From Atopsyche davidsoni (taxonomy: Eukaryota; Arthropoda; Insecta; Trichoptera; Hydrobiosidae): a stretch of 64,000 nucleotides of DNA. Position numbers and translations under genes: made by a program. The stretch's first letter is position 1, and each line of letters opens with the position of its first letter. The notes beneath the pieces were generated by a model. The model ran no database searches. It saw only the letters and a program-made list of their open reading frames with translations, and was not told the origin of the DNA. Where the stretch lies: positions 2,604,001-2,668,000 of the forward strand of contig JAILWY010000025.1 of NCBI GenBank assembly GCA_022113835.1, written 5' to 3'. Below, one piece after another: positions 11,782 through 48,289 of the stretch.

Positions 11782-11864
11782 AACGTTAAATAGTTGTTTA
11801 TGTGATTAAGCATATTTTTTCACACATTGAAAACGATTAAAGAAAACTCTCAGAAAATATCATC

Positions 11865-13132
11865 GTGACTTGTGAGGGATTCGAACCCACATCCCCAAGC
11901 TTTCATGGCCGGTGCATTTATCCAACTATGCTAACGAGCCACTGCAATTTAGTGAGAATTTTTAATAATCATAATCTACATATGAACCAATATGCCCAGG
12001 CTAATCAATATTTAATGATTTGCAAACACTGGACTTAATTAAAGTAACAAGTGAAGCATTTTTATATCCAAATATGGTTATTATTATTTTTAAAATCTAT
12101 TGATGTTTAGCCGAGACGCGCACCATTCTATTTATATTAAATTGGATTAATGTTAATCAGGATGCGTATTTATTTACCCATGCAGGTATTAGTATGTTTA
12201 TGTGATTAAGCATATTTTTTCACACATTGAAAACGATTAAAGAAAACTCTCAGAAAATATCATCGTGACTTGTGAGGGATTCGAACCCACATCCCCAAGC
12301 TTTCATGGCCGGTGCATTTATCCAACTATGCTAACGAGCCACTGCAATTTAGTGAGAATTTTTAATAATCATAATCTACATATGAACCAATATGCCCAGG
12401 CTAATCAATATTTAATGATTTGCAAACACTGGACTTAATTAAAGTAACAAGTGAAGCATTTTTATATCCAAATATGGTTATTATTATTTTTAAAATCTAT
12501 TGATGTTTAGCCGAGACGCGCACCATTCTATTTATATTAAATTGGATTAATGTTAATCAGGATGCGTATTTATTTACCCATGCAGGTATTAGTATGTTTA
12601 TGTGATTAAGCATATTTTTTCACACATTGAAAACGATTAAAGAAAACTCTCAGAAAATATCATCGTGACTTGTGAGGGATTCGAACCCACATCCCCAAGC
12701 TTTCATGGCCGGTGCATTTATCCAACTATGCTAACGAGCCACTGCAATTTAGTGAGAATTTTTAATAATCATAATCTACATATGAACCAATATGCCCAGG
12801 CTAATCAATATTTAATGATTTGCAAACACTGGACTTAATTAAAGTAACAAGTGAAGCATTTTTATATCCAAATATGGTTATTATTATTTTTAAAATCTAT
12901 TGATGTTTAGCCGAGACGCGCACCATTCTATTTATATTAAATTGGATTAATGTTAATCAGGATGCGTATTTATTTACCCATGCAGGTATTAGTATGTTTA
13001 TGTGATTAAGCATATTTTTTCACACATTGAAAACGATTAAAGAAAACTCTCAGAAAATATCATCGTGACTTGTGAGGGATTCGAACCCACATCCCCAAGC
13101 TTTCATGGCCGGTGCATTTATCCAACTATGCT
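11865..13132 (-). ncRNA. tRNA-like sequences, minus-strand units of the array
   Basis: Copies lie at 11865-11942, 12265-12342, 12665-12742 and a truncated one at 13065-13132. Read on the minus strand, each has a perfect pol III A box (TAGCATAGTTGG), a perfect B box (GGTTCGAATCC) and a pairable acceptor-like stem (GTGGCTC with AAGTCAC, one mismatch and one G-U). The anticodon loop reads CATGAAA, so position 33 is A where tRNAs have U. The anticodon stem is poor, the T stem has a mismatch, and two extra bases separate T stem from acceptor. It is a tRNA-derived sequence rather than a working tRNA. A TTTT run just downstream could end pol III transcripts at about 90 nt. Confidence 0.75.
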
Positions 13133-13347
13133 ATTAACATTAATCCAATTTAATATAAATAGAATGGTGCGCGTCTCGGCTAAACATCAATAGATTTTAA
13201 AAATAATAATAACCATATTTGGATATAAAAATGCTTCACTTGTTACTTTAATTAAGTCCAGTGTTTGCAAATCATTAAATATTGATTAGCCTGGGCATAT
13301 TGGTTCATATGTAGATTATGATTATTAAAAATTCTCACTAAATTGCA

Positions 13348-16225
13348 GTGGCTCGTTAGCATAGTTGGATAAATGCACCGGCCATGAAAGCTTGGGGATG
13401 TGGGTTCGAATCCCTCACAAGTCACGATGATATTTTCTGAGAGTTTTCTTTAATCGTTTTCAATGTGTGAAAAAATATGCTTAATCACATAAACATACTA
13501 ATACCTGCATGGGTAAATAAATACGCATCCTGATTAACATTAATCCAATTTAATATAAATAGAATGGTGCGCGTCTCGGCTAAACATCAATAGATTTTAA
13601 AAATAATAATAACCATATTTGGATATAAAAATGCTTCACTTGTTACTTTAATTAAGTCCAGTGTTTGCAAATCATTAAATATTGATTAGCCTGGGCATAT
13701 TGGTTCATATGTAGATTATGATTATTAAAAATTCTCACTAAATTGCAGTGGCTCGTTAGCATAGTTGGATAAATGCACCGGCCATGAAAGCTTGGGGATG
13801 TGGGTTCGAATCCCTCACAAGTCACGATGATATTTTCTGAGAGTTTTCTTTAATCGTTTTCAATGTGTGAAAAAATATGCTTAATCACATAAACATACTA
13901 ATACCTGCATGGGTAAATAAATACGCATCCTGATTAACATTAATCCAATTTAATATAAATAGAATGGTGCGCGTCTCGGCTAAACATCAATAGATTTTAA
14001 AAATAATAATAACCATATTTGGATATAAAAATGCTTCACTTGTTACTTTAATTAAGTCCAGTGTTTGCAAATCATTAAATATTGATTAGCCTGGGCATAT
14101 TGGTTCATATGTAGATTATGATTATTAAAAATTCTCACTAAATTGCAGTGGCTCGTTAGCATAGTTAGATAAATGCACCGGCCATGAAAGCTTGGGGATG
14201 TGGGTTCGAATCCCTCACAAGTCACGATGATATTTTCTGAGAGTTTTCTTTAATCGTTTTCAATGTGTGAAAAAATATGCTTAATCACATATACATACTA
14301 ATACCTGCATGGGTAAATAAATACGCATCCTGATTAACATTAATCCAATTTAATATAAATAGAATGGTGCGCGTCTCGGCTAAACATCAATAGATTTTAA
14401 AAATAATAATAACCATATTTGGATATAAAAATGCTTCACTTGTTACTTTAATTAAGTCCAGTGTTTGCAAATCATTAAATATTGATTAGCCTGGGCATAT
14501 TGGTTCATATGTAGATTATGATTATTAAAAATTCTCACTAAATTGCAGTGGCTCGTTAGCATAGTTGGATAAATGCACCGGCCATGAAAGCTTGGGGATG
14601 TGGGTTCGAATCCCTCACAAGTCACGATGATATTTTCTGAGAGTTTTCTTTAATCGTTTTCAATGTGTGAAAAAATATGCTTAATCACATAAACATACTA
14701 ATACCTGCATGGGTAAATAAATACGCATCCTGATTAACATTAATCCAATTTAATATAAATAGAATGGTGCGCGTCTCGGCTAAACATCAATAGATTTTAA
14801 AAATAATAATAACCATATTTGGATATAAAAATGCTTCACTTGTTACTTTAATTAAGTCCAGTGTTTGCAAATCATTAAATATTGATTAGCCTGGGCATAT
14901 TGGTTCATATGTAGATTATGATTATTAAAAATTCTCACTAAATTGCAGTGGCTCGTTAGCATAGTTGGATAAATGCACCGGCCATGAAAGCTTGGGGATG
15001 TGGGTTCGAATCCCTCACAAGTCACGATGATATTTTCTGAGAGTTTTCTTTAATCGTTTTCAATGTGTGAAAAAATATGCTTAATCACATAAACATACTA
15101 ATACCTGCATGGGTAAATAAATACGCATCCTGATTAACATTAATCCAATTTAATATAAATAGAATGGTGCGCGTCTCGGCTAAACATCAATAGATTTTAA
15201 AAATAATAATAACCATATTTGGATATAAAAATGCTTCACTTGTTACTTTAATTAAGTCCAGTGTTTGCAAATCATTAAATATTGATTAGCCTGGGCATAT
15301 TGGTTCATATGTAGATTATGATTATTAAAAATTCTCACTAAATTGCAGTGGCTCGTTAGCATAGTTGGATAAATGCACCGGCCATGAAAGCTTGGGGATG
15401 TGGGTTCGAATCCCTCACAAGTCACGATGATATTTTCTGAGAGTTTTCTTTAATCGTTTTCAATGTGTGAAAAAATATGCTTAATCACATAAACATACTA
15501 ATACCTGCATGGGTAAATAAATACGCATCCTGATTAACATTAATCCAATTTAATATAAATAGAATGGTGCGCGTCTCGGCTAAACATCAATAGATTTTAA
15601 AAATAATAATAACCATATTTGGATATAAAAATGCTTCACTTGTTACTTTAATTAAGTCCAGTGTTTGCAAATCATTAAATATTGATTAGCCTGGGCATAT
15701 TGGTTCATATGTAGATTATGATTATTAAAAATTCTCACTAAATTGCAGTGGCTCGTTAGCATAGTTGGATAAATGCACCGGCCATGAAAGCTTGGGGATG
15801 TGGGTTCGAATCCCTCACAAGTCACGATGATATTTTCTGAGAGTTTTCTTTAATCGTTTTCAATGTGTGAAAAAATATGCTTAATCACATAAACATACTA
15901 ATACCTGCATGGGTAAATAAATACGCATCCTGATTAACATTAATCCAATTTAATATAAATAGAATGGTGCGCGTCTCGGCTAAACATCAATAGATTTTAA
16001 AAATAATAATAACCATATTTGGATATAAAAATGCTTCACTTGTTACTTTAATTAAGTCCAGTGTTTGCAAATCATTAAATATTGATTAGCCTGGGCATAT
16101 TGGTTCATATGTAGATTATGATTATTAAAAATTCTCACTAAATTGCAGTGGCTCGTTAGCATAGTTGGATAAATGCACCGGCCATGAAAGCTTGGGGATG
16201 TGGGTTCGAATCCCTCACAAGTCAC
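13348..16225 (+). ncRNA. tRNA-like sequences, plus-strand units of the array
   Basis: Eight copies of 78 bp lie at 13348-13425, 13748-13825, 14148-14225, 14548-14625, 14948-15025, 15348-15425, 15748-15825 and 16148-16225. They have the same A box, B box and acceptor pairing as the minus-strand copies. One copy (near 14167) has A for G in the A box (TTAGA for TTGGA). All carry T-stem CCCTC opposite GTGGG, whereas the compact copy at 30.2 kb has CCCAC, which pairs fully; the array therefore amplified from a copy with one damaged T-stem pair. Confidence 0.75.
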
Positions 16226-16366
16226 GATGATATTTTCTGAGAGTTTTCTTTAATCGTTTTCAATGTGTGAAAAAATATGCTTAATCACATAAACATACTA
16301 ATACCTGCATGGGTAAATAAATACGCATCCTGATTAACATTAATCCAATTTAATTTAAATAGTTGT

Positions 16367-17900
16367 ATTAACTTTTATATAATATCAGTTAAATCGATTG
16401 CAAACCGCAGCCAGCCACGAAAATACAGCTATAAAATCATCAAAAATACCTGTGTTTGTTAAAAAAAATCTGTAATTACCACTGCTCAGAGACCGGCCTG
16501 ATATCCTGAAAAAAAATGATAGAACTTTGCCTGAAAAACAAAAATCCGGTTGTGGGCCGGATAACGTAGAAAAACAAGAAAACGAATAATGGAGATTTCC
16601 CAGAGGGACGCCTGAAAAAATAACAATTAAAAGACGTGATCAATCAAAAAAGTTAGAAGCCGCTTAGTTACAGAAATACTATTTGAAGACATAAAAGTAT
16701 TAGAATAGGGATTTATTTAATTAAATCTATTATTTTTAGTACATTTAAAAGCTCTTTACATTTGTTAAAAAGCTTTGTAATATAGTTATATTCAGAAATG
16801 CTTTCCTACATTTTCGTCCAAATCTGAGGAAAGCACTGAATATATTTTTTCGGCGCTTTGAAAATAATGAATTTCTCCCAGGTACAGAGACAAGGTAAAT
16901 CCATTTAAAAAATCTCTAATTCAGATTTTCCGTGCTTCGGACTAACGTAGAGGAAGGTGATATATTTTTTTAATTGAAAACAATTTTTTTCTACCTGTAT
17001 TTAATTGAAACTGGGATCTTTTGATCGACAAGCAAGCGTGACTGCACTTAAGTATTAAGCAGTTTACAATGATTTTTGATCAGGATTTTTGTTTATCAGG
17101 CAATGTTTTATAATAAATAAAGTAATTCAATTTATTTTTAATAAGAGTATGTATTATATACAATAGTTTATTTATTTTAGCTTAAAATCAACATATATTG
17201 CAAAATGCTAGAGATTAAATTACAAATGGCTTTTTAATAAAAAAAATATTTTTTTGAATTCAATCTTACAAGAGATATTTATACAAAAACTCTTAATGAA
17301 AGAGATAAATGTTTTTTTTTAGCAAATTAAATATTTTATCATATCGTACACAATTCTCGATTGTTAAAAGTTTATTTATTTCTTGATACTAGAAAGATTT
17401 TGTGTGTTTTTATACTATAATGTTTTTTTTATTTGTTGATATTTCCGCGACTTAATAAAAAAACGTATGTTTTAAATAATATGCATCAAATATTTTACAA
17501 CCAAAAATAGACATGGAATATCTTATTATATATAATGTCTTTTACTGTACTTATAAAAAATATTTCAATACGAAAATTTAAATAATCTTAATTCTTTGAT
17601 CAAAAGAGCTGCATAAATGATATAATTCTTTATAATTTATGGATTCAACCCTTTATAACCTGAGAGATACGGCATTTCTTTATATGCAGCCTTCTCCACC
17701 ATCCCCCGTTTATCTCTCTAAGGAACTCACAGAAGAGAAAAAAGGTTTCTACAAGAGAAGTTACTCTCCCGATAGGCGGAGGGTGTACGTGCTCTATTTA
17801 TGAAACTCAGTTTGGGGATGAAAACTAGGGAAGGACCTGGGCTAACCATTTCCGGTTGAGAAACACTCAAAGTTTTTCTATCATTGAACATATATTTTTT
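16367..17900. other. AT-rich non-coding DNA
   Basis: No gene is recognised. Several CCTGAAAAA blocks recur between 16505 and 16625. A GC-richer patch lies at about 17650-17860. Nothing else is supported. Confidence 0.6.
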
Positions 17901-17904
17901 TGAT

Positions 17905-17955
17905 TTTTGCCCAACGTTTCAACGTCGGCAATACAACCATGCTCAAGAAATACAT
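17905..17955 (-). ncRNA. Hammerhead-like relic of Penelope type
   Basis: Read on the minus strand, CTTGAGCATGGTTG is followed after a variable stem by GTTGAAACGTTGG. Hammerhead ribozymes have CUGANGA, a stem, GAAA, a short stem III and UH. Here the first box is degraded (UUGAGCA) but GAAA-CG-UU is intact. Penelope-like elements are known to carry hammerheads with very short stem III. It is a single degraded motif, so activity is unlikely. Confidence 0.4.
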
Positions 17956-20832
17956 CAATACTTTGAGTTTATACTAGTGGCGTACGATTTATACAAGCTA
18001 TAAGACATTGATTTTCTTTAAATATAAAAAAATATATAAAATTAAAAAATATATATTTGCCTTAATATTGGACTCGCGGCACGCCACTGGATTAAATAGG
18101 CATGAATATTTTATTCAATAAAAATGTTTCAAAACGGTTTTATATAATTTATAAGCCGACTTAGATTTGTATTAAAAAAGTTGTTTCAAAAATTAATGTC
18201 ATTTTCAAATGTGACCTTTGAACTATGAAACCAATTTTGTTAAAACAATTTTAATTTAAAAAAATATGATTAAGTGATTTCGCAAACTAAAGTTGAAGTT
18301 ACTAAACTAAAAAATAAATATATTTCGTGTGGCATCTTTACGAGTGAATGTTTTTTTTTTTTTTGCTTCGCTGCAATCTCAAAGCACTTGAATGAAAATA
18401 AATAATTAAATATTGAGAACCGCAGAGAGCGTTGGTATTTAATTACTGACAGAAATTTCATTTTATTTTTGTGTCTGGCAACTATTCAGAAAATAAACAT
18501 TCACTAATCTCTTCGTGTTTACAACATGCAGTTTCATAAAGCATTGCATGTCGCGTTGTATTTATTTTTTGCATTTTTACTGAAAAGAGAAAAAAAATAC
18601 TTAATTAAGTTACACGTATAAACTGGAAACTCTGCTTCTGCGTTTTTTTTACTCGGCTTTCTCGGATTATTTTATATTGGATATCTCCTATTGATGAAAT
18701 GAAAATATATATGATGATTATAAATTGCAGGTTAAGACATACAAAAAATAAATAAAAATATTACAAGATAAATTTAAAAATATTTAAGTTCTAAAAAATA
18801 TTAAATTTGCCATTTTTTTTACTGTTGCATAATAATTTGTTCCGCTTATAAAGATTGTCTTAATATTTTCCGCTGATAAAATTAAAATATAGAATTTAAG
18901 AAATTACACAAAATAAATATAAATACCACAAAAAAAAAATTCTAAACTAACAAAATAGTTTGGACGTCTTACTAGAATAAAAATAATTATTATAGTCTCA
19001 TTCCATCTAACTAATAACGTAATTTTTTTTTTCTTATACATAAATAAAATAAAGGTTTTATAAATGTTTTTCAGAGAGAAGCCTCAAATTTTGCTTCAAT
19101 TAATAAAATGTACCAAAGAAACAAATTCTTTAAAAAAAAAAATGAAACCTTCCTCCGACTAGTGCTTATATTTTTTTCATTTGTATTTCATACTTCGCCT
19201 TTTTTTAAAACCAGGGCTCAGCAATTAACAGAACAAAAGTATAAAACAAAACGCTGCAATGTTGCCAGATATATATAAACATGAATATATCTTGCTGTGA
19301 GCGTTAAATGGCAACACTGAACTCGTATTTTATGAATTCATTATGACTGCTGTGCTTTTGGTCTGAAAAATATGAATACATAAATATTTTTTCTGTTCAT
19401 GTTTTATGCAAAAACTTATGCTTTAATTTACTCGAGTGAATTTTATATTTACAATATTTAATTAAATTCAGCTTCTCAACTCTAAATATCATAAATCAAT
19501 TTTTTTTTTAAATATTGATATTTTAAATAGTAGCGATGACTATACATAAATTTTTTATTCCTAAAGTCTTGAAGAAAGTAGTTGAACTACAATATTTCAC
19601 AAAATCATTTCACATCATAAATCCTGAAATATATCCTGAAAACAATAGAATGTAAACAATATCAAATTCACGTATACCTCCTAAAACCTATAAAAAAGCA
19701 ATAAATTATAGATTCATTGTATAGATAACCGATATGTCTAACCAAATAGCAAATAAATAACGATTATTAATGTTTATAAGCGCTTTTGCCATTTAAGGGT
19801 TTCTTCATCGCCTTGAAAGTCTGAAAAATATACTTTTTTGAAGAATTAATTAAATAATAACAAGAAGTATGTTTGTTGTTAAAATATAGTGAAATTTCAT
19901 AGAAAAAAAAATTAAGGAATATATTAAATTTTATCAAAGTTTTACTTAAATAGAAAGTTAACTTAACTTTCTAACAGCAATAAATTTAAGGTCAATTGTG
20001 TTACCAAGAAGCAATTTTAAGCACATATCATAAATAAATAATTTTTTTATTCCTTCCAGACATTTTTTTTTTAATTTGGCGAGTTTAAAATTAAAATAAA
20101 ACATTAAATAAACTGTACAACAGATTCACACATATCACAAAAGGTCACGATAAAAAATTCATGCCAACAGGTCGAAATAACTTGTAGGTCCCGATTTTTT
20201 TATAATTTAATAATAATAATAATAAATAACGATAATTTTTTTAAAAGGAACCTTTAACGTATATTATTACAACGGATTTTTTCTTTAAAATTCTCTTTTA
20301 TATAACTCTGTCTCAATATGCGTAAATATAAATAAACTTTTTAATTAAATACAGCGCTTTAAGAAACCCGTCTGACGTGCGAAAAGTTATGAATTTATAT
20401 ATATTTTTTCAGTGTTTGTCTGTTTTTGCTCATCAAGCCTATTCTTGTGTTTAAATCGCGGTTTCTCTTGTCGAGATAAATGGCATTTTAAATATTACAG
20501 TTAATCAAGATTAATAAAAAGTTTTCGGTTATTTTTTTACAGGCAGTTGATTAATCGCGCCCGGGCCGAGGAGTTTCAGCATATTTTTCATTTTTATCAA
20601 GCCGAAGAACAAAGTACAAATGTCCATCTCTCAAAAAAAAGATAATCAAGCAATAAATCTTGGGACTTTTAAATACTCGCATTAAAAATATTTTTTTTGC
20701 ATGTTTTAAGAGTGACAATCTTTGCTTGTTTTCACGACCACTCGAAAATAAATTCCTATCAAACGAAACCCTTTACTAAAGATAATTTACAGTATCAGTA
20801 TCTGAAAGATGATGTGAAACCTGTTTAAGTCT
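17956..20832. other. AT-rich non-coding DNA
   Basis: This is long AT-rich sequence with many poly-A and poly-T runs and no recognisable gene. One hammerhead-like motif at about 19.78 kb is listed separately. A small GC-richer spot occurs near 20550-20570. Confidence 0.65.
19772..19810 (-). ncRNA. Hammerhead-like relic, GCGC stem III type
   Basis: The minus strand reads TGAAGAAACCC, then AAATGGCAAAAGCGCTTATAAAC. This fits CUGAAGA, a stem II region, a mutated GAAA (AAAA), a palindromic GCGC stem III and UU. Closely related strings occur at 31384-31420 (AAAAGCGCTTACAAAC) and 31600-31636, so a repeat family is present. It is degraded. Confidence 0.4.
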
Positions 20833-21187
20833 TTGATACGTGATTGGTTTTATATATTGATCTGTTTGGTACATTTAACGTTACAAAACGGTGTGGGAAA
20901 ACCTAGAAAAGTTCAAGCACCCCCACTCCTCGTCAGAGACAAGGCCACCTCTACAAAAGGCCAGGGCGGTCAAAAAAAAGAATTGGCCGCCCCAACAGGC
21001 GAACAAAAGAACAAAGAAGGAGCATCCTCCATGTCGAACCACTCTATCGAATTATACATCCATGACATCCTCTTTCTGCCGGGTCTTTCTTCTTTTGCAT
21101 TATAACGCGTGGGATTTGACATTAAGGGTTTCCTTTCTATTACGTCGAGCGTTACATTTAGTTTTTATACTCTCAAGTAATTTATGA
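20833..21187 (+). other. GC-richer patch with overlapping open frames, unassigned
   Basis: Two overlapping plus-strand frames stay open for about 90-98 codons because the sequence is locally rich in G, C and A. The longer frames begin at non-ATG codons, and the translated segments are Lys/Gln/Pro-rich with no domain I recognise. This could be a decayed transposon fragment. I do not call a gene. Confidence 0.25.
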
Positions 21188-25110: not shown

Positions 25111-25139
25111 TCGCCAACTATATATATATGTTGACACAT

Positions 25140-25156: not shown

Positions 25157-25202
25157 GCGTCGTCACTCTATACTAATATTTCAAGAAGGTGGTCTTCAAG
25201 AA

Positions 25203-26681: not shown

Positions 26682-28897
26682 ATGTTGATTAGGGTGTCCC
26701 TTAAAATTCATGTTCAATATTTTTTTACGCATACCTTCTTAAAAGTTTAGTAATAACCTTATATTGTCTAGAAAAAAATATTAGTTCGATTTATAAACGG
26801 TAACCCGTGCCGACTTGCGATTTTAACTTGTCCATACAAGTTGCGTAAGTACTGCGCTGTGACTTGTAACTGCATGTTTTATTTGTCATTTCATACGTGA
26901 TTTTTGAGATTAGTAGTGCTCCATTGTTTAGTGCGTTAACATGTCGGTGGAATTACGGAGTGATAAACAAAATAATTTCCTTATCGGTTTGCCTAGATAT
27001 CAAATAAATGGTGCAAAATTACCATCTACTCGACAAATTCCCTCGGTCCTATTTTACAATATTCGTGAGGTTAAACTGATTGTTAGTGAAAGTGCAAATC
27101 TTGTGATTAGGGAGTGCATCATATATTGGGAAAAAGCAAGAATTCCAACAAGGGCATATCCTAACTGCGTGAAGAAACTTGTTGATTTATATCATGTTTG
27201 GAGAGAGTTGCAAAAAAAATTGTAAGAAAACTCAGGTTACGTTCAAGAGCCGTGAGAACAATTTAAAAATTGATCTTGATAATTTGTTTGATATTGCACA
27301 TGCTGATGCTTTTGAGAGAATGAAAATAGAGTAAGATAAATTATTTTTAATGAAACAGAGAGAGCCAGATCGACCAGGATGCTTAGGTGGTGTTGATAAA
27401 AAATTGGCGGAAAAAGAAGATAGATCTAAACAACGACGATTGGAAGAAGAGGAAAGGGTTGTAAGACAAAGATAACCACTAGCTGCTGAAACTAGAAAAT
27501 CAAGGGCAGAAGCAATAAAATCTGACTTCTTTGGAAGTAATGTACCCGACGTAGTCACAGTCCATTGGGATGGAAAACTATTACCCGGGTTAGATGTACG
27601 AAGTTCTAAAGAAGAACGCTTGCCAGTTATTGCTTCGTTTGACGATAAGGAACAGCTTCTTGCAGTGCCAAAACTAGAACATTCTTCTGAAAAACATCAA
27701 GCTAAGGCTGTCTCAACAGCTCTCTTTGACTAGAACCTTCACGATAAAGTACAAATAATGTGCTGCGACACAACAGCTTTCAATACTGGCCGTTTCAATG
27801 GAGCTTGTGCTATTTTGGAGAAACTTTAGGAAGAGAATTGCTGCTCGTCTGTCGTCATCATGTTTATGAATTGGTCCTAAAAGCTGTCTTTGAAAGCAAA
27901 ATTAAGTAAATTACTAGTAGCCCAGATACTCCAATGTTTAAAAAGTTCAGAGAAAATTGGAAAAACATCGACGCTAGTAACATTGAACGATCTCTTAATT
28001 TCGTAAAACAACGTGTTGCCGAGACAGACATTCAAGCTTTTTTAATATTTTATAAGGCAGAATTAGACAAAGGTTATGTAAGAGATGACTACCGCAAATT
28101 AGTCGAACTGTGCGTAATATTTTTGGGAGGAGACACAGAGGAAAAATTAAAACTAAGCCCCCCAAAGCCATGCATCAGGCACGCTGGATGGCGAGAGCGA
28201 TCTATTCTTTAAAAATGTGTTTACTTCAGTCACAATGCAGAATAACTGCGAAGGACAAAAAGACTCTACAAGATGTTTGCTTATGTTTGTAAAACACTGG
28301 ATGATTTCGTATCGGAAAAGAGCAAACAATTTTTATCACGACTGCAGATCAACGACAGTTTTCTAAAGGAACATGTATCTTCTTGGAATAATAATAGTGC
28401 TTTTGTGGAAGCTAAAAGAAAAATAAGTTATTTGAGGGTTGTGAATGATACTGCTGAAAGGGCTGTTAAAATGATGCAAGATTTTAACGGACTTATCGCG
28501 GCTGAAGAAGAACAAAAACAGTTCTTGCTGCGCTGTGTCCAGGAACACAGAAAATTGTATCCGGACTGTAAAAAAACAACTCTATAAAAAAGTTACCCTG
28601 ACTGATTGTTATTACTTTATGTTTTTGATTAAAGATTAATGTTCATTTAATTGAATTTTTACTATTATTCACTTAATTTATTGCATTTATAATGATTTTA
28701 TACCAGACCGAAATATCAAGACAAAACACGTTTTTTACTAAACTTTGAAGCTCGGTCGGCACTAGTTGCAATTTTTCTAGAAAGATGAAATTTTATATTT
28801 GAGTATCTTATAGCATTAGTAAAAAATATAGAGGGTATGCATTTCGAAATTTGAAAAAAAAATTTTTTGGTCATATAAGGGACACCCTAATGTTGAT
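26682..28897 (+). mobile_element. Complete hAT-type DNA transposon, 2200 bp
   Basis: The 8-bp target duplication ATGTTGAT lies at 26682-26689 and 28890-28897. Inside it are 14-bp perfect terminal inverted repeats, TAGGGTGTCCCTTA at 26690-26703 and its complement ending at 28889. An 8-bp duplication and TAGGG-type ends are hallmarks of the hAT superfamily, and the decayed gene inside has hAT-like motifs in order. Both ends are intact, so the element could still be moved by a related transposase, but its own gene is dead. Confidence 0.85.
26941..28587 (+). pseudogene. hAT-like transposase pseudogene
   Basis: The frame opens with ATG at 26941 (MSVELRSDKQNNFLIGLPRY) and the last segment ends at 28587 (YPDCKKTTL). 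In between, recognisable blocks occur in order but in different frames. They are a charged segment with many Lys/Glu, VTVHWDGKLLPGLDVRSS, MCCDTTAFNTGRFNGAC (first catalytic Asp region), CRHHVYELVLKAVFE (the CxxH block of hAT transposases), HQARWMARAIYSLK (the RW block) and a C-terminal NDTAERAVKMMQDFNGL block. Disruptions include a frameshift near 27222, stops near 27333, 27474 and 27732, a further frameshift near 27827, and another between 28140 and 28170. I see no BED zinc finger. The family is familiar as an unnamed insect repeat protein, but I cannot give it a name. Confidence 0.8.
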
Positions 28898-30075: not shown

Positions 30076-30467
30076 AATAATAGGGAATATGTGATTAAGC
30101 ACATTTTTTCACACATTGAAAACGATTAAAGAAAACTCTCAGAAAATATCATCGTGACTTGTGTGGGATTCGAACCCACATCCCCAAGCTTTCATGGCCG
30201 GTGCATTTATCCAACTATGCTAACGAGCCACTGCAATTTAGTGAGAATTTTTCATAATCATAAATCATAAATGCACCGGCCATGAAAGCTTGGGGATGTG
30301 GGTTCGAATCCCACACAAGTCACGATGATATTTTCTGAGAGTTTTCTTTAATCGTTTTCAATGTGTGAAAAAATGTGCTTAATCACATAAACATACTAAT
30401 ACCTGCATGGGTAAATAAAAACGCATTCTGATTGACATTAAATCCAACTTAATATAATAATAGGGAA
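30076..30467. mobile_element. tRNA-like foldback element, compact copy, 12-bp target duplication
   Basis: AATAATAGGGAA is duplicated at 30076-30087 and 30456-30467, leaving a 368-bp insert. The insert begins TATGTGATTAAGCAC, close to the left edge of the 11.8-kb array, and ends with the same tail (ACCTGCATGGG to AACTTAATAT). Its left part is an inverted copy including a full tRNA-like sequence (30154-30231, minus). Its right part is a direct copy that starts in the middle of the tRNA-like sequence (about 30266) and runs to the tail. The two arms overlap for about 170 bp and can form a long hairpin. This copy shows the minimal insertion unit without tandem amplification. Confidence 0.85.
30154..30231 (-). 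ncRNA. tRNA-like sequence with intact pol III boxes
   Basis: Minus strand: acceptor-like GTGGCTC/AAGTCAC, A box TAGCATAGTTGG, B box GGTTCGAATCC and a fully paired T stem (GTGGG/CCCAC). The anticodon loop has A in place of U33. A partial plus-strand copy (about 30266-30323) keeps the B box but lacks the A box. It is better paired than the array copies and so probably nearer the ancestral sequence. Confidence 0.7.
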
Positions 30468-30691: not shown

Positions 30692-31191
30692 GGGTGTCCA
30701 AAGAGAGTATCGGGTATTTGTTAGTTCAGTAAAATAAAAACTGCTTGTAATCAAGTATTTTTTTTTACTGTTGATTATAAGAATACAAAATGGAAAATTA
30801 TTTCTAAAAGATGATGTTATCCAAATGACTCTTTTAATCTGGAACGAAGATTGCTGATATCACGCTGACACATAGCCCGTTTCAATTCAGTTAGGTTCGT
30901 CGGATTATTCTCAAAAACCCTACTTTTAAGGTATCCCCATACGAAATAGTCAAAAGCGCTAAGGTCAGGGCTTCTTTGAGACCAGTTGATGTTACCTCTA
31001 CGTGAAATGATCTTATTAGGGAATAATTCGTAAACAGCTTCAATTGATTGATTGGATGTATCATTGGTTGAACCACGTTATTGAGTTAAAACCTTAAAAC
31101 TCCTGCAACTCTGGACCCAAAAATTTTCGCAGCATATCGCAATAACGGTCACTATTCACATTCACCCGATACTATTTTTGCACACCCTGTA
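30692..31191 (-). mobile_element. Tc1/mariner-like deletion derivative, copy 2
   Basis: The left end GGGTGTCCAAAGAGAGTATC and the inverted right end (ACAGGGTGTGC, then TATCGGGTG) match copy 1, and the interior is colinear with it. Minus-strand translation again gives fragments around INWSQRS and the WGYLK region, with several frame breaks and small deletions relative to copy 1. It is another dead derivative of the same family. Confidence 0.8.
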
Positions 31192-31383
31192 TATTATCAT
31201 CTAGTAATATTCTGTCAAAAACATTTTTTATATTTAAAACTATTCTCTATGTAAAATATAAAACTTACAAATAATCGTTCATGAAACGATGAGTCGCTTC
31301 GTGTGTAAATCGATAGCCTTGAAAGACTGGTTTTATTTTTACTACTCAATATTCAATACACTTATTAAAAATACATGTATTTA
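31192..31383. other. AT-rich spacer
   Basis: Nothing is recognised. Confidence 0.4.
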
Positions 31384-33960: not shown

Positions 33961-33963
33961 CAA

Positions 33964-36660: not shown

Positions 36661-36721
36661 AAAACGTATAATAACATTAGCAAGCATAAATAATTTTGTT
36701 TACTATATTATTTTTTAAGGA

Positions 36722-36842
36722 GTTGATTCGGTTTCTTGGCTGTTGCGATGCTTGAGGTATATTTTTTTTAATCCCTGAAGATGATCCCAGCAATATATAC
36801 CTTGAGCAGTGCATCACCCAAAAAAAGGAATCAATTTTTTGT
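36722..36842. repeat. Imperfect long inverted repeat with CCCTGAAGATGATCCCAG loop
   Basis: Arms of about 38 bases (from GATTCGGTTTCTTGG at 36724 to GGTATAT, and TATACCTTGAGC to GGAATCA ending near 36831) pair with several mismatches. The loop includes CUGAAGA, as in the hammerhead-type relics, but no GAAA box follows. It looks like another decayed foldback of the same class. Confidence 0.4.
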
Positions 36843-39488: not shown

Positions 39489-39757
39489 CTAATATGGAGT
39501 AAGAAATTCAATATTTTTGACAGAAAGTACTTGGTGGAATTCCATTTTGATATTTTTGAATAAAATACTTGAGAGATTTTCCACATTTTTGTTTTTATTA
39601 GTGACCGGTTTCGCCAACCGGTACTCTGTTTGATAACGCCAACGGTACTCTGTTTGATAATGCCAACGTGAAAGGTTGGCGAAACCGGTCACTAATAAAA
39701 ACAAAAATGTGGAAAATCACTCAAGTATTTTATTCAAAAATATTCTAATATGGAGTA
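39489..39757. mobile_element. Hammerhead-bearing foldback insertion, 13-bp target duplication
   Basis: CTAATATGGAGTA is duplicated at 39489-39501 and 39745-39757, enclosing 243 bp. The inner part is an almost perfect inverted repeat of about 70-bp arms. The left end carries an extra tail (AAAGTACTTGGTGG) absent at the right. The centre holds two short copies of a GGTACTCTGTTTGATAA block. The plus arm reads TTTGATAATGCCAACGTG, AAAGGTTGGCGAAACCGG, TCACTAATAA: a perfect 6-bp stem II (GCCAAC/GTTGGC), GAAA, a CCGG stem III and UC. The first box is UUGAUAA rather than CUGANGA. Confidence 0.75.
39652..39700 (+). ncRNA. Hammerhead-like core in the 39.5-kb foldback
   Basis: The boxes are UUGAUAA (for CUGANGA), stem II GCCAAC/GUUGGC with loop GUGAAAG, GAAA, stem III as the self-complementary CCGG, then UC, the predicted cleavage site. 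Stem III this short usually works only in dimers, as described for Penelope-like elements. Two changes in the first box make activity doubtful. Confidence 0.45.
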
Positions 39758-40335
39758 TTACAAAATAAATAAGTCTCTCGTGTAAGTGTAAATCTTTACT
39801 TATTTTCATAAAAAAACATAAAATAGTAATAACAGAGAACGTCTGATTATCTTAAAACGATTGATTTAATTAAATATTTTTTTAACAATAGATAAATTAA
39901 TAAAAATAACAGAACGTGTTTCCAATGTTTTATATTTTTAATTTTTAACATTATTTTGCAAGTGCGGAGCCAATTTACATTTTTTTTTTAAATGCATCAG
40001 TTTAACTATTGTATTCAACGATTCAATCCTTTGCTCAGTTTTAATACTACAGTAGTTCAATTGGCTACAGCACCGAGCTTCATTTACCGTACCAGTTAAA
40101 ATCCACCTGTGTCGAAAAAAAATTTGAGAATTTTCCTTGTCACTGCACGTATGAATAAAATTCTTAGAATATATTGTATGGAAGAACTTATTTATTCTGA
40201 TATTACAAAAACAGCTTAAACGATGTAATAAACATGAAATACATTTATTTATAGGGAATATCGTAAAGTTTGAGCTTTTTAGCTTTATCTGTAGGTATTC
40301 CCCGATTGATGTTGTCCTACAACAGCTGGGATATT
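39758..40335. other. AT-rich spacer; host of the foldback is itself a repeat
   Basis: The sequence across the target (ATGGAGTATTACAAAATAAA when the insertion is removed) equals the tail of the foldback at 62.9 kb. This insertion therefore landed in an older element copy. The remainder is unrecognised AT-rich DNA. Confidence 0.45.
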
Positions 40336-40500
40336 TCGGGAATAATCAAGTTAATCCAGGCCGGCTGTAAGGAAAGCAGGTCCCCTAATACAGGTTCTAA
40401 TCCCGTAGTGGGGTTTGTTTAGAAACTCAGATTCGTTTATAAAGTTTCTGCTCACTTGGGATTCGAACCCAAAGCCACCGGATAATACCCGTCGTCCTAA
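40336..40500. repeat. Possible tRNA-related SINE relics
   Basis: GGTTCTAATCCC at about 40393 on the plus strand, and GGGTTCGAATCCC at about 40459 read on the minus strand, are B-box-like and lie within pairable T-stem sequence. No convincing A box is seen at the right distance. The composition is GC-richer than the flanks. This may be a pair of decayed tRNA-derived repeats. Confidence 0.35.
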
Positions 40501-42099
40501 AGACAGTTTAGAAAGTATTATTTGTTTGATTACGTTTACTTTCTTGGGCAGTGATTCGCTGTGCCTTTTTATGTACTATGCCCTTTCAGAAGTTTTTCGG
40601 ATTAGATTTGTTAGAAAAATTATACTGAATACTTTAGTTATTATGTTTTTGGGGAATTTTGAATGAAATTGAAATATTTATACTCGTTTTTAAAATATTT
40701 TATCTAGTTCATCTTACCATAAAACCAATATGATAATTTTAACCGCTTTATCCATTTGTATTTTTTTGTCCTTACTAAGTGATATCTACTCTACATTAGA
40801 TATATTATATAACATATATATAATGCAAATTACCGGCTTAGACATCTCCTTCATCTCAAATTCACCTGAATTTGATAGACTCTATAAATAGCCGTTATAT
40901 TTGTCGATATTCTGAATGGAATATATCTAAGGGTCGTGAGTGCAAATATCTCCCGTATTATCCCAAAGGGTCTCGAAATATTATCTTAGCATCATTACTA
41001 TAAAACACAAATACAACCGTTCAAAATGTAAAGTTAAACTTAAACTACATAAAATTATTTTATTATATTTAAAAAAAGTTATAAATGTTTAATCGTTGGT
41101 TGTTGGGTAGCTATACAAGCACGTGGTCAAATTCGGTTGTGTACTTACAACACATAAATATATTCTTTTCTAAATATATTAATATTATTTTTTTGTCTGA
41201 AAGGCTAAAGCAGCTTCTTTGTAAAGCTACATGAAACGATATTTTGAATCACATTTATGAAAATTCCTTAAAATATATATATGACACTAAAGTCGAGACA
41301 TCAACAGACATTTTTGTTTTTAAATATGTTTATAAAAATTATTACAAAAACAAGTAATTAAACCTAAGAATTTTTTTTTATAGAAACTAAATATTTTATT
41401 ACCAACCCAATAATTTAATTTTTTTTTTTTAAACCACTTGCTTAACTCATTTTTTCTGTACGTGTTATTTCTCTTAATGATGATTCTACATTCCGATTAT
41501 TTAATTTGTGATTAATTAATTATTTTTATTATTATTTTTCTCTTATTTGCTGAGAGCGCAAAGTTCGGAAATTCTAATTTTTGTTGTTTCAAACTTTTAA
41601 TTCATTGTTTATTTTTTATGAGGAAGTCTCCCCTTTTTGTAATTGCTCGGAATTGAAAGAATTTCCAAGTGATTGTTGTCTCCCTTAAACCGCCTTCCTC
41701 GCCCCCACTCGCCCCTAATTTCGCACAAAGGGAAGTTTTTTCGCACCCCTTCCGCGAGAACACTTAAATAATTGAGTGACACTCTCTCAGAGTGCGCCGC
41801 TTTTTTTGGAAATTGTTTTTCTTTATATTTTTAGATTTTACATTTTAAACCGCATTTTTTTTTGTTTGGTGCCTTTTTTTGAAGAAATTTTGCTATTCAG
41901 ATAAATAATATATCCGTTAAATCTAAGAAAGTTCTTCCTCTCATCGCCTACGTATATATTTTTTCATCATTATTTGGCCTGATGGATAAACTGAACAAAT
42001 AAAATATAATATAAATATAAATTAAATGATTCCGTTCATATTATTATTATAAAATACTAAGCAAATATTATACTGTCAAGCTTCTCATTTTCACTAAAG
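40501..42099. other. AT-rich non-coding DNA
   Basis: No gene is recognised. A GC-richer, pyrimidine-rich spot lies at about 41670-41800. Confidence 0.6.
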
Positions 42100-44040
42100 C
42101 ACTTCAACTTCTACGACATCCCATCATTTTTTAATATTATTTACGCAATTATCTACACCAAGATAATATCTGAAATTTTTTCTGCTTTAATATAAAATAA
42201 AAGGAAAATTTTTAGAGATTTCGCAATCTTTAAACTGATACGATATTTTGTCTTCTACGACATCCGTAGCACCTGGTACGCAACTATCTTCACAATGATA
42301 TTTTATTTGTGTGTTTAAATGATTCAAGTTATCATATATCCCGTTATTATTAGAAAAAATATAAAAATAATTGTCCCTCAGTATTCAGATGCTACGTTCC
42401 CGCGATATTTATGCCGCTAAGATATTTCGGCTTCTACGGAATTTGTAGCAAATGCTGCGCAATTTTTGACTAAAAAATAATTAATACTTTCGATTAGATA
42501 GTTCTAATTTGCATGTCTTGTACTTGTTTTGTAAAATATAGGAATAACGCTACCTTCAGCACTGTGTCATTACATTCCCACGGCCTCCAAGCCGCTTTGA
42601 TACATCAGCCTACGACATTCGTAGCACCTGCTACGCAGCTCTCTATACAATGATGTTATATTGGTGTGATTAAATGATTCATGTAATCATATTTCCTGTT
42701 ATTTTAAGAAAAAATATTATAAAATTGTCCTTCAGTATTTAGATGTTACGTTCCCACGATTTTTATCCCACTACGGTATTTCGACTTCTACGGAATCCGT
42801 AGCACCTGCTGCGCAATTCTTAACAACAAAATAATTATTTGAGTCGATTAGATAATTCGAGTTAACACGTTTTGTTAAATATAGGAATAATGCTACCTTC
42901 AGCACTGTGTCATTACATTCCCACGACCTCCAAGCCGCTTTGGTACTTCGGCCTCTACGACATTCGTAGCACCTGCTACGCAGCTCTCTACACAATGATA
43001 TTTTATTCGTTTGTTTAAATGCTTGATTTTTAGAGAAAATATTAGATAATTGTCTCTCCGTAACTAAAATGTTACGTTCCCACAATTTTTATCCCGTTAC
43101 GGTATTTCGGCTTCTACGGAATCCGTAGCACCTGCTACGCAATTCTTAACTACAAAATAATTATTAGAGTCGATTAGATAATCCGAGTTTGCACGTTTTG
43201 TACTTGTTTTGTAAAATATAGGAATAATGCTACCTTCAGCACTGTGTCATTACATTCCCACGACCTCCAAGCCGCTTTGATACTTCTGCCTCTACGACAT
43301 TCGTAGCACCTGCTCTCTATACAATGATGTTTTATTGGTGTGTTTAAATGATTCAAGTAATCATAATTCCTGTTATTTTTAGAAAAAATATTATATGATT
43401 GTCCTTTAGTATTTAGATGTTACGTTCCCACAATTTTTATCCCGCTACGGTATTTCGGCTTCTACGGAATCCGTAGCACCTGCTACGCAATTTTTAACTA
43501 CAAAATAATTATTAGAGTCGATTAGATAATCCGAGTTTGCACGTTTTGTACTTGTTTTGTAAAATATAGGAATAATGCTACCTTCAGCACTGTGTCATTA
43601 CATTCCCACGACCTCCAAGCCGCTTTGGTACATCGGCCTCTACGACATTCGTAGCACCTGCTACGCAGCTCTCTATACAATGATGTTTTATTGGTGTGTT
43701 TAAATGATTCAAGTAATCATAATTCCTTTTATTTTTAGAAAAAATATTATATGATTGTCCTTCAGTATTTAGATGTTACGTTCCCACAATTTTTATCCCG
43801 CTACGGTATTTTGACTTCTACGGAATCCGTAGCACCTGCTGCGCAATTCTCAACAACAAAATAATTAATAGATTCGATTAGATAATCCGAGTTTGCACGT
43901 TTTGTACTTGTTTTGTTAAATATAGAAATAATGCTACCTTCAGCACTGTGTCATTACATTCCCACGACCTCCAAGCCGCTTTGGTACTTCGGCCTCTACG
44001 ACATCCGTAGCACCTGCTACGCCATTGTCTGCGTCACGCC
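42100..44040. repeat. Satellite-like array, monomer about 175 bp, alternating dimers of about 345 bp
   Basis: Twelve palindromic cores lie near 42111, 42255, 42434, 42610, 42788, 42955, 43114, 43292, 43462, 43640, 43818 and 43995, spaced mostly 167-179 bp. Alternate monomers carry CTACGGAATCCGTAG (perfect dyad around one base) and CTACGACATTCGTAG, each followed by GTAGCACCTGCTACGC, itself a dyad (GTAGCA-CC-TGCTAC). The block CTACCTTCAGCACTGTG occurs only in every second monomer (42550, 42893, 43230, 43578, 43934), showing a dimeric higher-order unit of 337-356 bp. The first units are the most diverged, as at array edges. Open frames across it are incidental. Confidence 0.9.
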
Positions 44041-47000
44041 AAATTAGCGCTGAGTGCTGGGACCCGAGTGTTGCCATTCCTAAATATCAGGCCCCTGCAT
44101 AATGCATGTTGTTCCAACGGCGGCGGCACTCAGCTGGGAATTTATTTTAACGATTATGGCAACTTTGACATTGAAAAATTCTTTTATTTTTCGCGAATAT
44201 CAATCACTCCAGAGTAGATTTTTTTTTTCTATTGTGATTCTGTGCTTTTAACTTTAAATTTAAATATGAAAAGAAATGCTTTTCTATTTATATTTAATAA
44301 AGTGTCATCATCAAAAATGAAACGTATTGAATTGAATTATCGAAAATATTTTTAAAGTGAAATATTATTTAGTGTATTAACACGTTGTAACTTTTATAAA
44401 TATTGGAAATATTACTTATATTCTAGACACTTAAAAAACAATCCTCAACTATATGCTACAAATTTGATTGATTTCTAACGTTAAACTTTGACGTGAAGTT
44501 ATTTGTTTCACCTCTAAAGAAACTTTTTATAAGCTCTAAAAATATTTTTAAACTTTTATTTTGTTTTTATCTATACGTTGGTGTAAAAACTCGTACTATA
44601 GATTATTCTAATACTATTTTTACCTCTTTACAAAGGCATTACGATTACTACTTCAAGAAATCAAGTACGTGTGTAATTATAGTTAATTTTAAAGTTAATA
44701 TTTTTTAAGTTTTACTTGTTTAAGGCCTTTGAGTTAAATTGAATTTATTAACGGCGTCGACTCGTCTGTTAATGGGTTTTCTGTCAGAACTAAACTGGCA
44801 TCTCACAATCATTACAAGATGGATGCCAAAGCATATTTGTCTGTCTTGTTTATTCTAACCATTTGTAAAGATGATTTCAGCACACAAAGTCAAATATCTT
44901 AAAGGAATGAATAAGAATAATTTGACATCTAAAAAATGTAATTTAACAAGTTTCTCTGTCTAAAACCTGCAGAATTATATATAAATTATATTGGTTGACT
45001 AAGTTTTTTGAACATGTACTCATAATCCTGAAATTGTAATTAAACGAAAACCTTTCATTACGTGTATCAATACAAATCATTTTTCTAAATAGAAAGTAGT
45101 AAAAAACATATTACAGTTAATATTTAAAAATGACGAGGCTGTAAATCAAAAATATTTTTTTAACAAGACACCATAAAATTAAAGATCATTTTCGACTTGA
45201 TTCTATGGGTTATTGATATTTATGAATATCCATAAGTGTATTCGAATAAATTAAATATTGGTATAACCCACGCCTAAAAAACTTTAAAGAACACGAATGA
45301 AATATTCACTCAAATCTATTTATTTGCTGTAAAAATAATTTTAAAAAAAATCATATTATATTTTGTCGCTTTTAAGCTTAAATTTTTTTTTTCTTCGTAG
45401 GTTTTTAGACGAAATAGCTTTTAAAATAAAAGATGCGAAGTTTCACTCCATAGCTTATTATTATTTAAATACATTTTCATTATGTAAATTTGGCAAAAAA
45501 TCACTCTAAATATGTTCGTACATATTTTTTATGAATCTTAATGTCAAATATAACGGATTTTTGATATTAACTAAAACAAGCATTTTTAAATATTTTAATA
45601 ATAATATCAAAACGTGAGACAAGTTCAATAAGTAATATAATATTATTTCTATAAAACGACTTTTATTATATTGAATATTCTTGATAATTAATTATAATTT
45701 ACCCCATGCTTTGGGGTTGGTTTCGACCCAATTGCCTATCCAAGGGCGCAATTTCTATGCAAATAAGTTATTATTGGCAATATTAGTCCCACACACACAC
45801 ACAAGTAAAAAAAAGATAAAATTATAACTTAGTAAAGAGGTTTTTTGGTATATATGTATTTGCGTATTGTTACATAAAATTTCAAAGCGATCTTGAAACT
45901 TTTTGCCCATAAATACACCCATTTTTTCATCTGTTCAAATGAGAAAAGTAGACAACAGATAAAAAAAAAACTTTTCTTTTGCACGGAAGGAGAATTACTC
46001 GGTCCTTTTTTTAACGTAATTAAAATTTCCTACGCAAAATAAAATAAGATACAAGGAAACCCTGATTTGTAATCCTTTCACGATCGCAGAAACTTTCAAG
46101 CGAGACTCTTTTGATTATACTTCGCAAACAAACTTTATAATTATCATTCGCTGAATGGAAAAAGACTTACGATTTCGCGTTTTAAAAAGCGGCTGTTTGC
46201 GGAGAGAATACAGCCTTCGTACCTACGGCCATATTTTTTTCTTATAATTTAGACCCGCTCTCTCAAATCCCAAAGCAAACACCCTAAAAAAACAACCCCA
46301 TTTTGTTCCTTTTGTCTCCCTCGCAGTTGTACAGATTTTAAACCCTTTCCGTACAATGTAACAGTACAGTGTTTGAATTTATCATTTAACATCCCTGCCT
46401 TTTTATTTATTTTATTACGTGTGTATTTATTTTTTATAATTAGATTTAATAAAATCTAAAATTTGATTCAATACTTTCTGTATTTTTAAATGGGTATTAT
46501 TCATTTTTAACAAATACTCTGTCATACGACTACAGTGGTTAAAATAAGTGTTTTATTTATATAAAGTCTAGTGAGTTATCGTTATTGCTATTATCTTATA
46601 TTTTATCAGAACATTAAACCGAAATATTATTTTAGCTCGTGGAATAAAAGTATTTTATTTTAATCTTTTTCCACTTATAATATATTAAAGCCTTACATTA
46701 CCTTAGTCAGTAGAGTAAACCTTTTCATGACACTTTTTATCTTAAAGATTAGATACAGTTCATTTTTTTTTTTTGTACTGAGTATATATTATTGTGGAAT
46801 TATAAATCATATATATATATATAGGAAGATATCTTAGTTTTTGACTTTTTTAGTTTTAGAAGTGGACCACTTCATACAATAAAATCGATTTAACACAACG
46901 TTTCCCAGGCTATTTGCCGCTTCTCCACTCTGGCTCGAAGGTTCCAATAACCTAAGCGAAGACAGAGGACCCAATTTGGACCTTTCCAGAAAAGGTTGTG

Positions 47001-47524
47001 AGACATTACACCCCCTTCCTGTTCACACACACCCCCGACGATCAGCTGCGAGGTGTATTGGTTTAACAACACCCCCACAGTATACTTTTATCACATTATG
47101 ATAAGTCCAATTACCACCCAAGACTGAACTTGTAGCAATCCTCATTTTAGACCACAATCATGTATGTATGGTATAAACAGTTTCAATTAAATATTAGTAC
47201 CTTTGTAATGTATTCAATTCACTTACACCCTTCAGCGGTACACGGGGTGTAACAGAGTCGGAGTCAACTTGCTCAAACACTTTGTTTCTCAGGGTGTCGG
47301 TTCCGCCTGAGGTGTTCTCGGGGTTGGTTCAGGGGAGAAGAGAAGGGAGGATGTTTGAAATACTAAATTTCAGATACGAAATAATTTTCAAGTTAATACA
47401 AGCGTGGGCCAGAGGCGTGATGTATTTTAAAACAATTTTGATAATTTATCGCTTATTAAATATAGATTCAGTAGCTGTATATTTAGTTTCAAGTAATTAG
47501 GTAGCAAAAACAAAAAATAATAAA
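44041..47524. other. AT-rich non-coding DNA
   Basis: No gene is recognised. An octamer-type POU site (ATGCAAAT) lies at 45757-45764 beside several TAATTA strings, and GC-richer spots lie at 46180-46340 and 46900-47060. These could be enhancer features, but single sites carry little weight. Confidence 0.5.
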
Positions 47525-47672
47525 AAGATATAAAGCATATTATTGATTTTTGTAAAGATCGTCTCACAGGAAGTACGCTTTTGCCTATACAGGTTTGATT
47601 GATTGATAATGATTAAGTATATTTTTTCAAATATTGAAAATTGATTAAAGAAACTCTTAAAAAAATATCATC

Positions 47673-47748
47673 GTGATTTTTGTGGGATTTGAACCCACAT
47701 CCTCAAGCTTACATGGCCGGTGCATTACCAATTGTACCAACGAATCAC
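47673..47748 (-). ncRNA. tRNA-like sequence, divergent subfamily
   Basis: Minus strand: A box TGGTACAATTGG, B box GGTTCAAATCC, acceptor-like GTGATTC with AAATCAC and T stem GTGGG/CCCAC. The anticodon loop CATGTAA would place TGT at the anticodon (a threonine type) but has A at position 33. The partial plus copy starts at 47751, within the anticodon region. Confidence 0.65.
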
Positions 47749-48094
47749 TAGTAAGCTTGGGGATGTGGGTTTAAATCCCACACAAATCACGATGATATTT
47801 TTCTAAGAGTTTAATTAATCAATTTTCAATATTTAAAAACATGTACTTTATCATTATCAATCAATCAAATCTGTATAGGCAAAATCGTACTTCCTGTGAG
47901 ACTGTCTTAACAAAAATCAATTATATATTCAACAAGTGCGTGTATAGGCTTAATTAAATAGACTTTAAAAAAATATATATCCAGATCGGATTTAAACGCT
48001 TCACTCAGTACTTTGTGTTAAACGTCTAGTATTGCAAGTCACACAGTTGTTTCATTTATTGGATATGATTGTTAATTTTTTTTGCTTAGTACTA

Positions 48095-48170
48095 GTGATT
48101 TGTTGGTATAATTGGTAATGCACCGGCCATGTAAGCTTGGGGATGTGGGTTCAAATCCCGCACAAATCAC
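48095..48170 (+). ncRNA. tRNA-like sequence, best-paired copy
   Basis: The acceptor stem GTGATTT/AAATCAC pairs in all seven positions. The A box is TGGTATAATTGG, the B box GGTTCAAATCC, and the T stem GTGGG/CCCGC pairs fully with one G-U. The loop is CATGTAA (TGT flanked by A33). Two extra bases lie between T stem and acceptor, and no CCA is encoded. It supports descent from a tRNA, perhaps tRNA-Thr. Confidence 0.65.
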
Positions 48171-48289
48171 GATGTTATTTTTCTAAGGGTTTTTTTTAAT
48201 CAATATTAGAAAAAATGTACATAATCATTATCAAGATATAAAGCGTTTTTTTTTAACACTGAGGACGTACGATTTCAAAACACCGTGTA

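Follow-up and report, generated by a model that had tools for sequence, protein, structure and literature searches.

The window analysed here is a stretch of 64,000 nucleotides from the trichopteran insect Atopsyche davidsoni (contig JAILWY010000025.1, positions 2,604,001 to 2,668,000), which carries three insertions, E1, E2 and E3, of one family of tRNA-like elements. A sequence-only reading had placed the ends of these insertions and had described a different 12-bp direct repeat around each of them, and both the ends and the repeats were confirmed by sequence reading in all three cases (Table 1); the E3 repeat was read by eye, the automatic repeat search having missed it. The tRNA-like sequence proposed for all three was also recovered: ARAGORN and the Rfam tRNA model each found 14 tRNA-like genes (38.2-48.1 bits in Rfam), antisense in the left arms and sense in the right arms, with the tRNA present, at least in part, in both arms of each insertion. 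An open reading frame (ORF) scan found no frame of 100 or more codons inside E1, E2 or E3.

E1 measures 4557 bp between its duplications and is an array, not a simple hairpin. Its units stand head-to-tail and are 99.5-100% alike; the lower value belongs to one sense unit, all other full units being identical. Its 400-bp unit, termed U, serves for numbering throughout, with U1 at window position 13134, and the tRNA domain occupies U217-U291. The left duplication of E1 is abutted by a 35-bp repeat with palindromic pieces (11671-11785), placing E1 at the edge of a hairpin-prone stretch.

Table 1. Anatomy of the three insertions, in window positions
Feature	Position	Strand	Basis or remark
E1 duplication, left copy, TTAAATAGTTGT	11786-11797	.	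sequence reading
E1 left arm, about 3.4 antisense 400-bp units, outer end U360	11798-13133	-	
E1 antisense tRNA-like domains, three	11865-11940, 12265-12340, 12665-12740	-	ARAGORN, Rfam
E1 right arm, about 8.1 sense 400-bp units, outer end U21 (=U421)	13134-16354	+	
E1 sense tRNA-like domains, eight	13350-13425, then each 400 bp on, to 16150-16225	+	ARAGORN, Rfam
E1 tail, the part beyond the other arm's end	about 16290-16354		on right arm
E1 duplication, right copy, TTAAATAGTTGT	16355-16366	.	
E2 duplication, left copy, AATAATAGGGAA	30076-30087	.	
E2 left arm, antisense U358-U183	30088-30263	-	tRNA-like domain 30154-30229
E2 filler, 3 nt	between left arm (ends 30263) and right arm (starts 30267)		
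E2 right arm, sense U236-U423	30267-30455	+	tail about 30391-30455
E2 duplication, right copy, AATAATAGGGAA	30456-30467	.	
E3 duplication, left copy, AAGATATAAAGC	47525-47536	.	read by eye
E3 (subfamily B) left arm, antisense	47537-47753	-	tRNA-like domain 47673-47746
E3 tail, 68 nt	47537-47604		on left arm; limits read by eye
E3 right arm, about 1.3 sense units, without tail	47753-48232	+	tRNA-like domain 48097-48170
E3 duplication, right copy, AAGATATAAAGC	48233-48244	.	read by eye

Compact Hairpins Across the Genome

The genome searched was the window's own (370.7 Mb, 80 contigs). With E2 as the query, 95 matches were obtained, 40 candidates of 1882 being scored, and 39 fetched loci together with E1 and E2 make up a compact-copy set of 41 loci; the E2 query is biased toward copies of E2's own length. 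At 34 of these loci the element is a head-to-head foldback, an antisense arm followed by a sense arm. The outer ends are strongly constrained: in 32 of the 34 hairpins the outer limit of the antisense arm falls within U344-U365 (median 356.5) and that of the sense arm within U420-U427 (median 423). Each DNA end has its own template end-point, the two lying about 65 nt from one another, and one arm is left with a tail of 59-82 nt (median 65.5). Five hairpins have an arm longer than 400 nt and are partial or full tandems. The inner junctions differ between copies, showing overlaps (15 nt at most) or fillers (27 nt at most). In 26 hairpins the arm that reaches further stops at U140-U166, a boundary that lies outside the E2 query, and six of the seven single-armed copies start at U136-U164; because both arm stops and starts fall there, this position suggests the 5' end of the RNA or a barrier. 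The single-armed copy at L046:573-865 has on either side a copy of a sequence about 115 bp long.

An ordinary tRNA-derived short interspersed nuclear element (SINE), mobilised by a long interspersed nuclear element (LINE) and folding back only occasionally as a by-product of twin priming, would share the tRNA-like promoter and would account for the single-arm copies (7/41), and LINE-1 twin priming is a source of inversions with duplications. However, the foldback is the rule, not only in the compact-copy set but also at five of six places in unselected sequence; duplications hardly vary in length; the hairpin ends show neither a poly-A nor a simple-repeat tail; and the tRNA in both arms of E1-E3, at least in part, as well as the multi-unit arrays described below, do not fit. 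We therefore regard this explanation as quite unlikely.

The unselected sequence was a 190-kb sample from three contigs, taken without reference to the element, 100 kb of which adjoins the window. Family members occur at six places. Alignment showed self-complementary foldbacks at L049, L053, L061:4338 and L066, L054 has short segments facing opposite ways, and L061:1580 is single-armed. An exact 12-bp duplication was found at L061 and one carrying a mismatch at L066, the rest being ambiguous. These members fall into subfamilies like A, like B (that of E3) and a third, C. Scaled from six places in 190 kb, the genome would hold about ten thousand copies, with a wide error.

The two arms of one element are closely matched. 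Over U277-U352, divergence within an element is 0.66%, against 2.95% among left arms, 2.70% among right arms and 2.84% between left and right arms of different elements, and none of 5000 random arm pairings was as low as 0.66%. The arms are identical over this interval in 25 of the 34 elements. A single source for both arms is, as these variants read, the rule, with exceptions, and since variants are for the most part common to both arms of an element, each insertion probably forms its hairpin afresh.

This pattern bears on a second alternative, a DNA transposon of the Foldback (FB/Galileo-like) kind or of the miniature inverted-repeat transposable element (MITE) type, whose hairpin would move as DNA through a transposase acting on terminal inverted repeats. 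Three formally FB-like traits are seen here: the arms are inverted, tandem repeats occur internally and the duplication length is nearly fixed. Mirror-image terminal inverted repeats inherited as a unit are not seen: the outer ends are no mirror images, one arm being about 65 nt longer in 32/34 hairpins, and the inner junctions vary from copy to copy. Moreover, a hairpin copied as a hairpin should show the opposite variant pattern, with left arms resembling left arms, unless its arms were gene-converted, whereas the observed variants follow the insertion. We give this origin hardly any credence.

Several further candidates were dropped. The inner junction positions (a+b) sum to about 400-430 in most hairpins, and one-RNA collision models were considered for this sum, but no claim is made, since the query has a length bias and L061 breaks the rule. 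A long rod fold tipped by the tRNA had a z of -2.9 in subfamily A but only 0.14 in E3, and shuffles reached its flank complementarity 47 times in 500 for A and 16 times in 500 for E3. A 19-base match in L052 was set aside as chance. Searches of viral contigs, prokaryote contigs and phages gave no match to the element, as would be expected if it belongs to animals.

Target-Site Duplications and Target Motif

A duplication was found in 33 of the 34 hairpins and measured 12 bp in 24 of them, 14 bp in three, 13 bp in two, and 9, 11, 16 and 20 bp in one each, so that the near-fixed 12-bp length noticed in the window extends to the genome. Lengths are those of the longest exact match, and mismatched end pairs with 40-nt end windows served as the control. 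An exact repeat of at least 11 bp joined the paired ends of 32/34 hairpins but only 3 of 1122 mismatched pairs; for arrays, a repeat of at least 12 bp was found in 9/9, against 0/72 mismatched pairs. A genome-wide comparison had been proposed as the check on the sequence-only reading, and the many copies with duplications of 11-14 bp and foldback form are what it anticipated.

The target motif was derived from 32 exact 12-bp duplications (24 from hairpins, eight from arrays), giving 64 half-sites read outward. The half-site is (not T)TTAA on both sides: T stands at +1 in 3/64, at +2 in 41/64 and at +3 in 33/64, and A at +4 in 42/64 and at +5 in 38/64, with binomial p values against local composition of 3.6e-8, 7.8e-7, 3.3e-3, 1.8e-7 and 2.7e-5, respectively. 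The target is thus dyad-symmetric, and because the motif is the same on both sides of the duplication we infer that it is cut by a symmetric, dimeric endonuclease.

Multi-Unit Arrays

With unit U as the query, 265 matches were obtained, of which 150 were listed. The arrays consist of near-identical units of 399-401 nt, antisense units first and sense units after, and among the matches listed all eight two-orientation arrays, E1 included, follow this order. Unit counts among the matches listed, antisense plus sense, were 13+6 in array C10, 10+5 in C16 and 6+8 in C1, and the longest run there has at least 22 units (C8, ends not read). Array ends were predicted from the two template points and only the predicted ends were fetched. 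For five of six arrays, and at the right end of C16, the first predictions missed because the orientation of these arrays was opposite to that assumed; once corrected for this, the prediction held. The left end of C16 and the right end of C24 were not reached. All nine arrays with both ends read have duplications of 12-13 bp and one end at each template point (the duplication of the C3:405k array was seen by eye first and then measured).

Near-identity of units within an array is also what concerted evolution would give, and the arrays might have arisen by tandem amplification or gene conversion after insertion, only the compact hairpin being due to retrotransposition. Against this, variants are common to both inverted arms, namely a U396 deletion in the C10 array and in the C11 array and U32T>A in C16, where all 15 listed units of both arms scored 718 bits instead of 722, not each unit being read. 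The arrays also match the hairpins in the two template end-points and the type of duplication, and their inner junctions lie at scattered unit positions. Amplification after insertion appears unlikely to us.

The segment U21-U140, absent from most compact copies, is identical at 88 of 111 positions between subfamilies A and B, and its U26-U139 part scored above all 1000 shuffles. Because this segment is conserved between the subfamilies, the whole unit U is taken to be ancestral.

The arrays suggest an endless template, with which a circular RNA and a multimeric transcript fit alike. A linear multimeric transcript of an existing array, with no RNA circle, comes close to an even chance in our judgement: dispersed homogeneous arrays exist and could be transcribed, multi-copy transcripts have been proposed for Penelope-like elements (PLEs) (PMC11167929), and no ribozyme was found in the unit, either by a permissive Rfam scan of 967 + 761 nt or by a core pattern search for the hammerhead. 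On the other side, the first origin of homogeneous arrays with a new variant, as in C16, would be left unexplained.

Penelope-Like Elements in the Same Genome

A search of the genome for GIY-YIG gave 24 matches, and one PLE copy proved to have an 818-aa frame with RVT_1 (E 2.4e-10) and GIY-YIG (3.8e-5). Searching with this protein listed 55 places. Full-length frames, with reverse transcriptase (RT) and GIY-YIG, measure 818-858 aa and form at least three intact-looking groups by score and frame length (about 826, 845 and 839 aa), the second and third being 42-44% identical to the first; there may be further groups. No relative of the protein was found in the Protein Data Bank (PDB).

These host PLEs have an anatomy like that of the tRNA-like element. 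Neighbouring copies that differ in orientation stand in the order antisense, then sense, several forming large head-to-head palindromes, and PLE-2 forms tandems with a period of 2775 bp (C15, C23). Both ends were read in nine PLE foldbacks (L108, four by L110-L117 and four by L118-L127), and in all nine the arms are head to head, the duplications are 12-16 bp long and one arm carries a tail of about 41-44 nt; the C15 duplication and the PLE-2 and PLE-3 tails were read by eye, and the ends are partly ambiguous. A single PLE at L109 (C25:8161800-8166400) has the duplication AACACTAAAATA, also read by eye. A hammerhead core is present in PLE-1, and none was found in ten fetched pieces of PLE-2 and PLE-3. 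A 3' end common to the element and PLE-1 was considered and rejected, its score being reached by shuffles in 600 and 511 of 1000.

Other Features of the Window

Ten ORFs of the window gave nothing above the Pfam cut-off. A repeat of about 500 bp occurs in three dispersed copies that are 81-86% alike (6607-7130, 30694-31193 and 55429-55902); a frame in the first of them (6729-7085) has no Pfam match, and one copy begins about 227 bp to the right of E2. Tandem repeats were found at 42292-44018 (a 356-bp unit in five copies, 84% matches) and at 8113-9308 (a 190-195-bp unit in about six copies, 77% matches). At 57352-58146 and 61068-62042 stands a pair of duplicates, alike at 96 and 99% in its two pieces, and between its members lies a GC-rich 553-aa frame with 12/36-bp repeats (58354-60015). 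Two frames at 27910-28587, the first with a relative in Eumeta japonica (63%), probably belong to a different sort of transposon. For a transposable element frame of the window and for the Penelope protein, the best named relatives are lepidopteran (Eumeta, Parnassius, Euphydryas, Phthorimaea), followed by beetles, a psyllid and ants; taken alone, they would make a host among the Lepidoptera likely.

Discussion

In this study, we conclude that the family is probably a tRNA-promoter, non-autonomous retroelement inserted by PLE machinery, because the duplications, the dyad target, the two end-points, the shared arm variants, the arrays and the host PLEs of the same anatomy all agree with a Penelope-type insertion. 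We propose the following model. A dimer of the PLE endonuclease would cut both strands and leave 12-nt 3' overhangs, and from each 3' end reverse transcription would be primed at one or other of two internal sites, as a rule on the same RNA. Polymerases that stop at the 5' boundary near U140-U166 would give compact hairpins, and those that continue round an endless template, circular or multimeric, would give arrays. Head-to-head joining of the two cDNAs, with a small overlap or filler at the joint, would follow, and gap filling would produce the duplication.

Published work on PLEs agrees with much of this model. Both strands are cut and extended by PAc, the purified PLE of PMC11167929, whose preference is for ATT and whose two start sites are internal and adjacent, the interval between them being the tail, and in a rotifer inverted pLTRs with an optional tail have been described (PMC3846280). 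An inverted head-to-head copy, partial tandems, an optional one-arm tail, short duplications and an AT-rich target are thus traits that the element shares with PLEs of the Penelope/Poseidon type with GIY-YIG (PMC3846280, PMC11167929). At least three PLE groups of the same genome have the foldback, tail and duplication anatomy too, and the nine foldbacks read have duplications of 12-16 bp, a range that includes the element's modal 12 bp. The sequence-only reading was borne out genome-wide in treating the insertions as one family of foldback or array form, without a protein and unlike an ordinary SINE; its suggestion that this set of traits might have no precedent was not borne out, the foldback arms, partial tandems, one-arm tail and short duplications being Penelope anatomy. 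What distinguishes the element from PLEs is the absence of an ORF, the tRNA-like promoter, the 400-nt unit and runs of up to at least 22 units among the matches listed.

A number of observations weigh against a Penelope-type origin. The seven single-armed loci have no convincing duplication: at L045 a 12-bp duplication lies 22 nt off the end. The ends of L014 and L037 fall at other template positions, L037 has no duplication and L039 has one of 9 bp only. The arms differ in nine of 34 elements and, in L009, L010, L030 and L047, at a position that separates subfamilies, so that two units or two RNAs may have supplied the arms of some elements. Tail lengths differ, at about 65 nt in the element and 41-44 nt in the host PLEs, and in vitro the start sites of PAc did not differ between the strands (PMC11167929). 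No hammerhead core occurs in U or E3, in contrast to PLE-1; Rfam misses the PLE-1 core as well, and its negative result alone is therefore weak. Finally, comparison of the element with the fetched ends of the three host groups gave only AT-rich matches of up to about 30 bases (best E 0.002). Because no shared sequence was found with these groups, no PLE partner is named, and the element is not filed as a proven member of a PLE family; we class it as a tRNA-derived variant of Penelope-type retroelements. As far as its sequence tells, it behaves as Penelope elements do, and its tRNA promoter is SINE-like.

Other non-autonomous elements resemble it in part. The tRNA-derived SINEs HaSE1/HaSE2 and PxSE of Lepidoptera likewise have a tRNA-like promoter with A and B boxes, no protein and dispersed copies, but the duplications of HaSE1 measure 5-18 bp and its TGA-repeat tail is related to an RTE LINE, and inverted or tandem copies are not described in the available parts of these reports (PMC3272025, PMC8010984). 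Measured against such SINEs, the element has the predicted tRNA-like Pol III promoter and lacks the single-orientation copy, with foldbacks at 34/41 loci. Helenus and Ajax of TRIMp3 are also non-autonomous retroelements that have a small-RNA promoter and use no LINE, and differ in their long terminal repeats (LTRs), primer-binding site and duplications of 4-5 bp instead of a modal 12 bp (PMC10886601). Metazoan retrozymes are tandem, non-LTR elements whose autonomous partner could not be deduced (PMC7229834, PMC7761336), and like the element they consist of short, tandem, non-coding, low-GC repeats with duplications longer than 4 bp. In contrast to them, the unit has a tRNA-like domain in place of a type I hammerhead core and the element takes the foldback form, and circular RNA, which is reported for retrozymes in the same sources, is only proposed here.

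A bolder reading, which we hold tentatively and as somewhat less likely than not, is that of a new class of SINE, in which a tRNA-promoter RNA would circularise without a known ribozyme and the RT of a PLE would read many times round it from both ends of a staggered break, with one polymerase at each of the adjacent start sites on the same RNA. If so, the optional Penelope tail would be explained as the mark of a two-polymerase, one-RNA complex.

A tRNA-derived element with Penelope anatomy appears to be what is new here; no tRNA-derived, Penelope-dependent element was found described in the literature searched, Repbase and most subscription papers lying outside that search. SINEs are taken to depend on LINEs (PMC8010984), and a tRNA-derived parasite of Penelope elements would, if confirmed, be a third partnership beside those of SINEs with LINEs and of TRIMp3 with LTR elements. 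Penelope transposition is poorly understood (PMC11167929), and the many clean insertions of this family would record it as a symmetric cut with a 12-nt stagger, one start site per DNA end and both arms mostly from one source. The family thereby makes Penelope transposition and the partner of the animal retrozymes testable questions.

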